64,000 nt of DNA from an uncultured Desulfobacterales bacterium (GTDB lineage Bacteria > Desulfobacterota > Desulfobacteria > Desulfobacterales > UBA11574): NCBI GenBank assembly GCA_937998305.1, contig CALLDL010000018.1, positions 42,618 through 106,617 on the forward strand, in the 5' to 3' direction. Made by a program: the position numbers and the translations under genes. The notes below the pieces were generated by a model. It did no database searches, was not told where the DNA came from, and saw nothing but the letters and a program-made list of their open reading frames with translations. Positions 16,104-59,699 of the stretch are shown here, in pieces; the first letter of the stretch is position 1; every line of letters starts with the position of its first letter.

Positions 16104-18113
16104 ATGAATCGAACTGTAAAGTGGGTGTTAATCATTGGCTTCAGCTTGATTGCCGTATTCATCGCAGCCCTTGTCCTGCTGCCGAAGTTCGTGGACGTCA
16201 AACAATACAAACCCCGGATCGAAGCTCAAGTGACCAAGGCTACCGGACGTGCATTTAGTATTGGAGATGATCTTCGTCTTTCTTTTTTTCCATATGCAAG
16301 CCTTTCCTTTTCCGACTTTCACCTGGGAAGCCTCCCTGGGTTTAAGGAAAAAGATTTTATCATCGTGAAATCGTTTGATGTGAGGGTTAAGCTTGTGCCC
16401 CTTCTTTTCAAGGACATACAGATCAAACGTTTTATATTAAAAGGGACTCGACTTGTCCTGGAGACCAGTAAGGACGGCCGGACCAATTGGGAATTCAATG
16501 CAAAAACCACTCCCGAACTTTCTGCTGAAACGCCAAAGGAAACAAAAAAGCCAAGAAAAGCCGAGTCCGGAGAAGGATTCGCTCTAAAAACATTTACCTT
16601 GGGTGAGCTTGCTGTGACCGATGGATCCGTTCTCTGGCTGGATCACAAGAAAAAAGAGCGCAAGGAAATTTCTGATGTGACCCTATTGCTTCAGGATGTC
16701 TCCCTGGACCGACCCATCGGCGTTACCTTCTCTGCCAGGCTCGATAAACAGCCTTTTTCTCTTAAAGGCAATGTGGGGCCAATTGGTAAAATGCCCGGTA
16801 AAGGGACGATTCCCCTGGATTTTTCCGTCAGAGCTTTTGAACAGGTGGATATCGGGCTAAAAGGAAATGTTGTGGATCCGGCCAATCAGCCAAAATTTGA
16901 CTTATTCATAAATGTATCCCCGTTTTCGCCTCGAAAACTTCTGGCCGCAATGGGAAAGGCTTTGCCTGTATCAACATCTGATCCTGGTGTGTTAAATCGT
17001 GTCTCCTTTAAAGCCGCTATCAAAGGGGACTCAAAGAATGTATCGGTTTCAGATGGTGTTATGGATATGGATGAATCGAAGGTAAATGTTACGATAAAGG
17101 CCGGTGATTTTACAAAGCCTCGGATAGCATTCAATATGGATCTTGATCAAATCGACTTGGATCGATATCTGCCGCCCCCAGCCAAAAAAGTGGCCGGAGA
17201 AAAAGAAGGCAAGACTGCTGAACCTAAAGGGGCTAAAAAGACCGATTATTCAAAGTTACGCCGGCTATCCTTGAACGGCAGAATGCGCATCGGAAAACTT
17301 AAAATACAGAATGCTAAAATCGAACGCGTTCATCTCACCCTCACCGGTGAAAAAGGGATTTTTAATCTGCAGCCCCTTACCATGGATCTGTATCAGGGCG
17401 GCTTGTCGGGAAACGGGATTTTCAGTGTACAAAATGATGTTCCGCAGACGAATATCCATCTGGCATTAAACGGTGTTCAGGCTGGACCCCTTCTTAATGA
17501 TCTTTTAAAAAAAGATTTTCTTGAAGGGATGCTGAAGGCGAAGGTTAATCTCAGCATGAAGGGAGATGATGCCGTCGCCATCAAGAGGACATTAAACGGC
17601 GATGGCGATCTTCTGTTTGAAGACGGGGCCATCAAGGGCGTTGATCTGAATGGAATGTTTAATAATGCCAAAACAGCCTTTGGACTGGCCGAAAAAGGTG
17701 GAAAAGCGCCACGGACCGACTTTTCACAACTTCATGTGCCCTTTTCAGTGAAAAATGGTCTTGTGAGCACCGCCAACACTGCCCTTATATCACCCTTGAT
17801 TCGATTGACGGCATCGGGAAACGCCGATTTGATAAAAGAACTGCTTGATTTCAGGTTAGAACCCAAACTCGTGGGAACCATCAAAGGGCAGGGGGATACC
17901 AAAGATCGTTCAGGACTCATGGTCCCCGTATTGGTGGTCGGAAGTTTTTCTTCACCCAAATTCCGTCCGGATCTCGAAGGGATGTTTAAACAAAACATTG
18001 AAAAAAGTCTTCCGGGTGTACAAGATAAGTTGCTGGGCACTGACTCTAAAAAAGAGGAATCAGGATTTATCGAGGAACAAATAAAAGGAATTCTCAAGGG
18101 GTTTGGGAAATAA
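16104..18113 (+). CDS. AsmA family protein
   Basis: N-terminal TM, LPKFVDVKQYKPRIEAQVTKATGRAFSIGDDLRLSFFPYASLSFSDFHLG, AsmA C-terminal block. Confidence 0.9.
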   Translation: MNRTVKWVLIIGFSLIAVFIAALVLLPKFVDVKQYKPRIEAQVTKATGRAFSIGDDLRLSFFPYASLSFSDFHLGSLPGFKEKDFIIVKSFDVRVKLVPLLFKDIQIKRFILKGTRLVLETSKDGRTNWEFNAKTTPELSAETPKETKKPRKAESGEGFALKTFTLGELAVTDGSVLWLDHKKKERKEISDVTLLLQDVSLDRPIGVTFSARLDKQPFSLKGNVGPIGKMPGKGTIPLDFSVRAFEQVDIGLKGNVVDPANQPKFDLFINVSPFSPRKLLAAMGKALPVSTSDPGVLNRVSFKAAIKGDSKNVSVSDGVMDMDESKVNVTIKAGDFTKPRIAFNMDLDQIDLDRYLPPPAKKVAGEKEGKTAEPKGAKKTDYSKLRRLSLNGRMRIGKLKIQNAKIERVHLTLTGEKGIFNLQPLTMDLYQGGLSGNGIFSVQNDVPQTNIHLALNGVQAGPLLNDLLKKDFLEGMLKAKVNLSMKGDDAVAIKRTLNGDGDLLFEDGAIKGVDLNGMFNNAKTAFGLAEKGGKAPRTDFSQLHVPFSVKNGLVSTANTALISPLIRLTASGNADLIKELLDFRLEPKLVGTIKGQGDTKDRSGLMVPVLVVGSFSSPKFRPDLEGMFKQNIEKSLPGVQDKLLGTDSKKEESGFIEEQIKGILKGFGK

Positions 18114-18258
18114 AACCGTATTGCCTGAATTTTGAATGAAAATTGATAAGAATCTTTATAATCCTTCTCTTGGAAGATTCAGGTATTATGATTTTAACTC
18201 GAGATTGATGATCTCGTAAAAACTCAAAAAACAGCCTTTTTTGCGAGTTCATCAAGAT

Positions 18259-18274
18259 TGGCATAAAAATTGCT
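18259..18274 (+). promoter_or_regulatory. Putative sigma54 (-24/-12) promoter
   Basis: TTGGCATAAAAATTGCT: GG (18260-61) and GC (18272-73) with canonical 12-nt register. Confidence 0.5.
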
Positions 18275-18284
18275 ATTATCATAA

Positions 18285-18374
18285 ATCAAATGGAATCAAG
18301 CTTCATGCTTTTTTGATTCCCACCTCCTTTTAACCCTGTTAGGTTGTCGTTATCTAACAGGGTTATTTATTTTT
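18285..18374 (+). ncRNA. Candidate small RNA (two hairpins, single-stranded CACCUCCUUUU linker)
   Basis: Starts about 12 nt after the -12 box; hairpin GGAATCAA...TTGATTCC (18292-18320); linker cacctcctttt (18321-18331); intrinsic terminator 18332-18374. Confidence 0.45.
18332..18374 (+). terminator. Rho-independent terminator
   Basis: AACCCTGTTAG - 11 nt loop - CTAACAGGGTT perfect 11-bp stem followed by ATTTATTTTT. Confidence 0.8.
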
Positions 18375-18692: not shown

Positions 18693-19517
18693 CTAATTAA
18701 GACGCTGGTCCGTATTTGGATTCCGCTCATTGATCAGTGAAATTTCCACCCGACGATTGGCCTGACGATTTTCAGGTAAAGTGTTATCAAACAGTGGTTG
18801 ATATTCTGAGAATCCCTGGATGGACACTCGCACAGGGGAGACGCCGTTATTGATGAGCGATTTTGCCACATTAATGGCACGGGCTGCGGACAATTCCAGA
18901 TTTGAGGGAAACTTTTCCGTATTAATGGGCGTGTTGTCCGTATGACCGGAAATTACCACCTGGTAACCCTTTTTAGAAGCAATGAATCCTGCTATCTTTT
19001 TAGAAATAAAATGATAGGCTTCGAGCAGCGTTGCTTCTCCTTCCCTGAATGTAATTCGCTCGCCCAGGACAAAGACAAGTCGGTTCTCTTCCCTTCGGAC
19101 GGAAAATACGTCGTTATCTTTTTCGTCCACAACGCTTAACACATCGGTACGGAGTTGATTAATCGCCTTGTCTAAACTTGTGTTTTTGTTCGCGGTAAAA
19201 AGAAGTTCTGTAGGGGTCATATCAGATTCTGCCAAAGATTCATTTTCCAATACCTGTTGAGAAGGGGGTGGTGTTTTGAACCCTATGGTCGGCCGATCAG
19301 TATTGGGACTGCTCGATGTCAGGTGCGTCTTGTCAGCGGACAGAGAATGAAGAAAGAGAAAAAATACCAGAAGAAGGGTCATTAGATCGACCATGCTCCA
19401 GAGCGGGACTTCTTCCTCAACGGTTTTTCGAGCCAGCATTTTCTGAAGCTGTATTCTTTTCCGTTCGGACAATTCAAGCTGATTCTTGAGTGTTTTTGTG
19501 CTGTTGTTCCTAAGCAT
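18693..19517 (-). CDS. motB: MotB-like protein with OmpA/peptidoglycan-binding domain
   Basis: PLWSMVDLMTLLLVFFLFLHSLS plug/TM, OmpA VVISGHTDNTPINTEKFPSNLELSAARAINVAKSLI. Confidence 0.85.
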   Translation of the reverse strand: MLRNNSTKTLKNQLELSERKRIQLQKMLARKTVEEEVPLWSMVDLMTLLLVFFLFLHSLSADKTHLTSSSPNTDRPTIGFKTPPPSQQVLENESLAESDMTPTELLFTANKNTSLDKAINQLRTDVLSVVDEKDNDVFSVRREENRLVFVLGERITFREGEATLLEAYHFISKKIAGFIASKKGYQVVISGHTDNTPINTEKFPSNLELSAARAINVAKSLINNGVSPVRVSIQGFSEYQPLFDNTLPENRQANRRVEISLINERNPNTDQRLN

Positions 19518-20349
19518 TTTGTCTTTTCGCTGTCAATTTTTCCATGGGATTCGAAGAAACCGGCCATTTTGATGGAACCTGTGATTCAAACAAATCCTTT
19601 TGCCTTCCCTGGCAATTCTCCATATAGGATTGCAGGTGGTACGCAATAGCCCTGGAATTTTTGTTTTGTGAAATATCTAGCACACCTTCTATAATTACAT
19701 AAAGGAGTGCGGATTCTATCTTAAGATGTTCAGATAGCTTTTTGTGCAGCGGAAGAAAAAGAAAATTGGCTATCAACAAACCATATAAAGTGGTGAGGAG
19801 TGCGATAGCCATGCCTTTGCCCATATCCGCAGGAGATCCCAGATTGTTCAAAACGTTCATCAAACCGATGATGGTGCCCAAAAACCCGATAACCGGCGCA
19901 AGCTTTTGAAGGGTATTTAAAATGTTGACGAGAGACTCCTTTCGAGAAAAATAAATTTCATATTCTTTTTCCATGATTTTGTGAATTTCAAACGGATCAT
20001 ATCCATCAACAATCAGATCGATTCCTTTGCGCAGAAAAAAATTTTTGATACGATGTGCTTCTTTCTCCAATGCCAAGTTGCCATAGAGCCTTTTTACCCG
20101 GGACAATTTTGCGATATCTTTTACCAAAATCCGATAATCCATTTCTTTGCGGCGAAAAATCACAACCAATGTTTTGAATAAATCTCTATAGCTTTTCATG
20201 GGAAAAGATAAAAAACCGATAACAATGGTACCGCCAAGCACCAGGATACCGCTTTTAAGGTTCAATATCATAGATGTTTCGCCGACAATCTTTGTCGAAA
20301 GCCCCAGAAATAACATTATCCCTGCTGCTGGAATCATTTTTCGGATCAT
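19510..20349 (-). CDS. motA: MotA/TolQ/ExbB-type proton channel
   Basis: LQKLAPVIGFLGTIIGLMNVLNNLGSPADMGKGMAIALLTTLYGLLIANFLFLPLHKKL. Confidence 0.87.
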   Translation of the reverse strand: MIRKMIPAAGIMLFLGLSTKIVGETSMILNLKSGILVLGGTIVIGFLSFPMKSYRDLFKTLVVIFRRKEMDYRILVKDIAKLSRVKRLYGNLALEKEAHRIKNFFLRKGIDLIVDGYDPFEIHKIMEKEYEIYFSRKESLVNILNTLQKLAPVIGFLGTIIGLMNVLNNLGSPADMGKGMAIALLTTLYGLLIANFLFLPLHKKLSEHLKIESALLYVIIEGVLDISQNKNSRAIAYHLQSYMENCQGRQKDLFESQVPSKWPVSSNPMEKLTAKRQNA

Positions 20350-20858: not shown

Positions 20859-20935
<77 letters not shown>

Positions 20936-45562: not shown

Positions 45563-45578
45563 TGGCACGAACGTTGCT
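45563..45578 (+). promoter_or_regulatory. sigma54 promoter of GAF-GspE gene
   Basis: TGGCACGAACGTTGCT, consensus -24/-12, 50 bp upstream of the ATG. Confidence 0.8.
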
Positions 45579-59343: not shown

Positions 59344-59699
59344 GGGGGCGAAACGGCTTCGACGGGGATAAAGAAGCACAGGTTGCATACCAAGCTCCTG
59401 CCGGCTTGTAAAAAAGGTGGGAAATTAAACATAATCGCAGATGATTATAATTACGCTCTAGCCGCTTAAAGGCTAGCGTCCTGCCGAACCATTCCTGCTA
59501 ATTCGGCAAGGGCGTCGACGAGCAGGATAGCTGGTCCCTAAATCCTGTTAACGGATCAGCGAATATTCTTACAGGATAGCCTTTTAAGCATCCTGCCTGG
59601 AGGAGACTAAAAAAGGCGAAAGCGAAAGTTCAGGCTATGTATGTAGATGCCTATGCGGAATGTTTTCGGACGCGGGTTCGACTCCCGCCGCCTCCACCA
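59344..59699 (+). ncRNA. ssrA: tmRNA
   Basis: GGGGGCGAAACGGCTTCGACGGGG 5' end, tag ORF gcagatgattataattacgctctagccgcttaa (ADDYNYALAA), 3' GGTTCGACTCCCGCCGCCTCCACCA. Confidence 0.97.

Follow-up and report, generated by a model that had tools for sequence, protein, structure and literature searches.

A probable, conserved small RNA gene with a sigma54-type promoter and an exposed anti-Shine-Dalgarno linker in uncultured Desulfobacterales

Does the short interval between the convergent asmA and motB genes of an uncultured Desulfobacterales bacterium encode a regulatory small RNA (sRNA), or does it hold only the terminator of asmA? We address this question in a window of 64,000 nucleotides (contig CALLDL010000018.1), in which a sequence-only reading had placed between these two genes a sigma54 promoter in exact -24/-12 register, a hairpin, an exposed CCUCC linker and a terminator. 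Pfam assignments confirm the two neighbouring genes and their orientation (Table 1), and the promoter is present as described, with TTGGCAT at 18258-18264, an AAAAA spacer and TTGCT at 18270-18274, the GG-N10-GC spacing being exact. As the pattern TGGCAYN5TTGC occurs twice in the 64 kb, whereas shuffles give an expectation of 0.36, the promoter pattern taken alone is only suggestive and not decisive. The other perfect -24/-12 box of the window, TGGCACGAACGTTGC, lies at 45563-45577 (+); the window also contains a tRNA gene (20862-20935, -) and a tmRNA (59344-59699, +).

Table 1. The predicted RNA gene, its parts and the neighbouring genes, in window coordinates.
Feature	Position	Strand	Basis
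asmA, upstream neighbour, outside the unit	16104..18113	+	Pfam; gene clusters
sigma54 -24/-12 promoter, TTGGCAT-N5-TTGCT	18258..18274	+	sequence, pattern match, boxes of homologues
predicted small RNA, ~90 nt	18285..18374	+	fold z -7.6; R1 match 18290-18366, 88.8 bits
5' hairpin, GGAATCAA..TTGATTCC	18292..18320	+	fold; alignment of members; covarying helix 1 pairs
single-stranded anti-Shine-Dalgarno linker, CACCUCCUUU	18321..18330	+	unpaired in MFE and centroid folds; conservation
intrinsic terminator, 14-bp stem, 7-nt loop, U-rich tail	18331..18374	+	fold; covarying helix 2 pairs
motB-like (OmpA domain), convergent neighbour	18693..19517	-	Pfam
motA-like (MotA_ExbB)	19510..20349	-	Pfam

The start of the predicted RNA was placed 12 nt past the -12 C and its end at the U tract. 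Folding of 18284-18374 gives -30.1 kcal/mol against -12.1 +/- 2.4 for shuffled sequences. Both arms of the hairpin first read by eye are found (18292-18299 and 18313-18320), and the linker, in which CACCTCC occupies 18321-18327, is indeed unpaired in both predicted folds; the whole linker has the same sequence as the 3' tail of 16S rRNA. In the terminator, 18331-18344 pairs with 18352-18365 and is followed by TTTATTTTT; its presence and its end at 18374 had been read correctly, but its stem is longer than the 11 bp originally given. The interval had also been described as free of plus-strand reading frames; there is in fact a single frame of 8 codons at 18290, which is not conserved among the homologues described below, and a peptide-coding reading was rejected on this ground. 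An opposite-strand transcript was set aside too, promoter and terminator both lying on the plus strand.

Homology settles that 18258-18374 of the window forms a conserved unit. In a DNA search, which also gave more distant copies, matches in three genomes of the genus begin at the -24 box and end at the terminator, and within the genus similarity breaks off between asmA and the unit and picks up again at the promoter. A covariance model (R1) was built from nine RNAs with the promoter purposely excluded. Among the 390 genomes of the order it matches 32 at E<=0.01, from nine families, and 30 of these have E<1e-5; a second model (R2) adds three strong members, which belong to two families beyond the order. 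Although R1 contains no promoter, a -24/-12 box (8-10/10 match to TGGCAC-N5-TTGC) stands upstream of 33 of the 34 non-redundant strong members, nearly always 12-17 nt before the hairpin model, and the three members outside the order have boxes of 9-10/10; the chance of a box of >=9/10 in that slot is ~2e-4 per sequence. The exception is L026, a second, decayed copy in genome G003 (444-526), in which the -24 element and the terminator stem have both degenerated. Genome G015 likewise has second copies (L027 1995-2075, and L054), and the copy represented by L027 and L111 has upstream gene neighbours in common with the window.

Both helices covary, 9 of 21 pairs changing on both sides, with 98.3% of alignment cells paired in register against <=58% when the alignment is slid by 1-3 columns, and the covariation score was reached by none of 500 shuffles. 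CACCTCC is invariant in the nine-member alignment and CCUCC is kept in nearly all of the 34 members. The conservation and covariation proposed as checks of the sequence-only reading are thus both found: promoter, hairpin, CCUCC and terminator are kept together across at least 11 families, mostly without asmA alongside. Five weak matches elsewhere in the phylum (L118-L122), in which no sigma54 box was seen, were excluded from these counts; two of them (L118 and L119, both 1501-1573) are C-rich RNAs of two hairpins with CCUCC in the linker and in the terminator loop, possibly a distant or convergent anti-Shine-Dalgarno (anti-SD) RNA. Pattern matches in Pseudarthrobacter, Gemmatimonadetes, Clostridiales, Microcoleus and L072 were discarded, having no model support at E<=0.001.

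These data bear directly on the view that the element is only the terminator or 3' UTR of asmA, perhaps giving rise to a 3'-UTR-derived sRNA, with a -24/-12 box there by coincidence. The unit does directly follow asmA in the window's genus, but this is the only genus in which asmA adjoins it, most families having no asmA beside the RNA, and in the window itself asmA and the promoter have a repeat between them. Such an outcome, with promoter and CCUCC not conserved, had been named as the one that would count against a small RNA; the opposite was found, and given the conserved promoter we reject the reading as extremely improbable. The repeat itself (18199-18256) is dispersed, an imperfect palindrome GATCTCGTAAAAACT..TTTTTGCGAGTTCATCAAG of which incomplete copies occur on four further contigs of the same genome, and was not seen at the equivalent place in sibling genomes.

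The commonest form of the RNA, GGAAUGAAGUUUCCUCCUUUCCUUCAUUCCCACCUCCGAC..CCCUGUUAGGnACCCCCCCUAACAGGGUUUUU, carries CCUCC twice, in the hairpin loop and in the linker, and its terminator loop is C-rich; the second CCUCC and C-rich terminator loop are found in most families other than the window's. The hairpin loop of the window has no CCUCC, though most relatives have it there, and its genus has the linker motif only, in lengthened form; two members of family f106 have CCUCC in the loop only. Most members are C-rich in the hairpin loop, the linker and the terminator loop alike, which recalls multi-site sponge RNAs, and the RNA could be imagined to bind a protein at these loops, for example by sequestering a regulator, rather than to pair with mRNAs. 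However, CCUCC, which is exactly complementary to GGAGG, is what persists from one context to the next, the repeated unpaired GGA motifs needed by CsrA sponges are missing, and known RNAs of such a layout act by pairing (PMC10746234; PMC11187230), which makes protein binding quite improbable.

What the RNA may regulate is suggested by where its gene lies. In many families the RNA gene sits inside a flagellar and chemotaxis cluster, various members having such genes within 10 kb, a link that the sequence-only reading, beyond naming motB, had missed. Specifically, the neighbourhood of L098 encodes FlgL, FlgK, FlgN, FlgJ, FlgI, FlgH, CheD, PilZ and HDOD proteins together with a response-regulator sigma54 activator; L106 has CheW, MCP, CheD, CheB and CheX as neighbours, L100 has MCP and MotB, and the window has motAB. 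Outside the order, L115 has an MCP gene on one side of the RNA and a CheA-like gene on the other. In G190 FlhA is encoded ~4.5 kb from the RNA. FlhA was found in 29 of 32 carriers against 193 of 358 non-carriers (p = 2e-5, by a statistic that ignores kinship); it was not found in the carriers G000 and G004, both incomplete assemblies, the former of which has a flagellin-like gene. Motility genes are not visibly adjacent in f3 (L105), f106 (L116, L117) and some other members. At 8-10 loci the divergent neighbour of the RNA is an HTH_17 (excisionase-like) protein with a Cys-rich stretch (L098:8607-9407, -), and in L107 and L109 a similar-looking HTH gene follows it.

RpoN is encoded in all 22 carriers tested, by a search that also finds the RpoN family in control genomes, and Hfq was found in none of the 22, while control genomes give Hfq matches. 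GGAGG lies near the chosen start in 12% of the genes in RNA neighbourhoods, thus pairing would be selective. It stands before 7 of 9 flgL genes (p = 8e-6, for a cluster picked after viewing ~17 gene clusters) and also before some genes of a response-regulator cluster; most carriers have AAAAGGAG and no GGAGG at their main flagellin-type genes. Target prediction, another of the checks proposed, gave weak leads: the flgL sites make this gene the best candidate target near the RNA gene, but duplex energies over 344 and then 326 starts, and over the flagellin and FlgM starts, gave no extended conserved pairing on any target.

We propose that the locus is a free-standing sRNA gene at which sigma54 polymerase, switched on by an enhancer-binding activator, would start transcription at ~18285 and stop at the intrinsic terminator to give an RNA of ~90 nt that would act without Hfq. 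Its anti-SD sequence, exposed in the linker (and in most relatives in the hairpin loop too) between two stabilising stems, would pair with GGAGG ribosome-binding sites and keep selected mRNAs from being translated. The RNA would belong, in most families, to the sigma54 motility regulon, therefore its likely job would be to adjust in which order or in what amounts flagellar and chemotaxis proteins are made. Conservation, structure, promoter and context are the observed part of this explanation, whereas we infer that the RNA is transcribed, what it targets, in which direction it regulates and what activates it; we put the whole, a free-standing, Hfq-independent, sigma54-driven and motility-linked sRNA that blocks GGAGG sites, at a probability of roughly two in three. 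As to its parts, genomic comparison makes a real and new family of sigma54-transcribed RNAs highly probable, and repression through the anti-SD sequence is likely, as is a motility role in most families; for the organism of the window itself such a role is less certain.

A real sigma54-dependent anti-SD sRNA could also be a general one, dampening many strong-SD mRNAs or competing with 16S rRNA under the signal of its activator, in which case closeness to motility genes would reflect shared sigma54 control or history and not target choice. The identity of the window's linker with the 16S tail, its clade's retention of the linker motif only, the members away from motility genes and the failure to find extended target pairing would all fit this. 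Against it, the flagellar and chemotaxis linkage recurs in many families and beyond the order, FlhA co-occurs, and GGAGG is uncommon in nearby ribosome-binding sites; we consider a general role rather unlikely.

A candidate activator site is visible in some families. Most members of f28, f30, f8 and f54 have a palindrome, GTCR-N6-TTGAC, 165-181 bp upstream of the -24 box, and the DNA around it is poorly conserved; the window's clade has no such palindrome, the corresponding stretch being asmA coding sequence or repeat. The palindrome is similar to GTCaNTAAAtTGAC, which PMC6120874 quotes as the FleQ consensus while flagging that consensus as unreliable, and a search for the FleQ domain (PF06490) gave borderline weak matches only. 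It is possible, and we hold it only tentatively with the odds somewhat against it, that these RNAs form a phylum-level Hfq-independent family dedicated to a sigma54/FleQ-like flagellar circuit, in which a motility activator would bind GTCR-N6-TTGAC and two to three anti-SD sites would switch off GGAGG flagellar mRNAs such as flgL in sequence, an independent counterpart of the Campylobacter jejuni sRNA CJnc230. A second sigma54 promoter, TGGCA[C/T]-N5-TTGC, was seen on the same strand at L098 10166 and in L099, L113, L097, L107, L109 and L111, at 250-321 bp past the start of the RNA and ahead of an HDOD, HTH or sensor-kinase gene; L109 has a GTCAACGAATTGAC palindrome ~110 bp before this promoter.

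The kind of system is known, and the family appears undescribed in the libraries and papers searched: no Rfam family reaches threshold at gathering or relaxed settings, and no earlier description was found in the literature searched. Against Listeria, MicF and RybB models the window scores far under the cut-off, and these weak matches were dismissed as terminator-like. Vibrio Qrr sRNAs are sigma54-dependent, free-standing genes with a terminator, and are Hfq-dependent. The comparison with Qrr made in the sequence-only reading is one of function only: sequence and targets differ, no Qrr model matches at threshold, and Hfq dependence would not carry over to these carriers. GlmY is not an anti-SD RNA, and its Rfam model gave no match here. 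GlmY is activated via sigma54/QseF and, like members of the present family with their candidate sites, has a sigma54 promoter and activator sites upstream of it (PMC6075780).

The best reading is that CJnc230 and alpha-r14/NfeR1 are the nearest analogues and that the present family is separate from both. NfeR1 blocks ribosome binding, without Hfq, by CCUCC flanked by stabilising stems (PMC10746234). The rhizobial alpha-r14/NfeR1 family (RF02344) shares with ours CCUCC-type anti-SD sequences in unpaired regions, which it repeats, and its Hfq independence parallels the carriers' lack of detected Hfq. However, alpha-r14 has three CCUCCUCCC hairpins, is alphaproteobacterial and has a promoter without a sigma54 signature (PMC10746234), whereas the present family has two hairpins, CCUCC only and a sigma54 box. 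One canonical member (L042) scores 35.3 bits against RF02344 (E = 2e-5) via its CCUCC hairpins, under the gathering score of 58.8 bits, and the window and 12 other loci give no match. CJnc230 (FlmE) of Campylobacter jejuni has the same layout of two stems, in an RpoN-dependent flagellar setting (PMC11187230). Its anti-SD sequence is CCUU rather than CCUCC, and it lies downstream of flgE and is cut from the flgE mRNA (PMC11187230), whereas the present RNA has its own sigma54 promoter and flgE is not among its annotated upstream neighbours; it belongs to another phylum, and no sequence relation was found.

To our knowledge, small RNAs of Desulfobacterota have hardly been described, and the present carriers, which where named are nearly all metagenome assemblies, appear to lack Hfq. 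It is very probable that the stretch is a genuine regulatory sRNA gene absent from the catalogues, and it is conserved in many uncultured bacteria related to sulfate reducers. Together with CJnc230, the family suggests more than one origin for flagellar sRNAs of the anti-SD type, and a structured, conserved sRNA with a visible sigma54 promoter, a candidate enhancer and candidate targets makes post-transcriptional flagellar control outside Campylobacterota directly testable.
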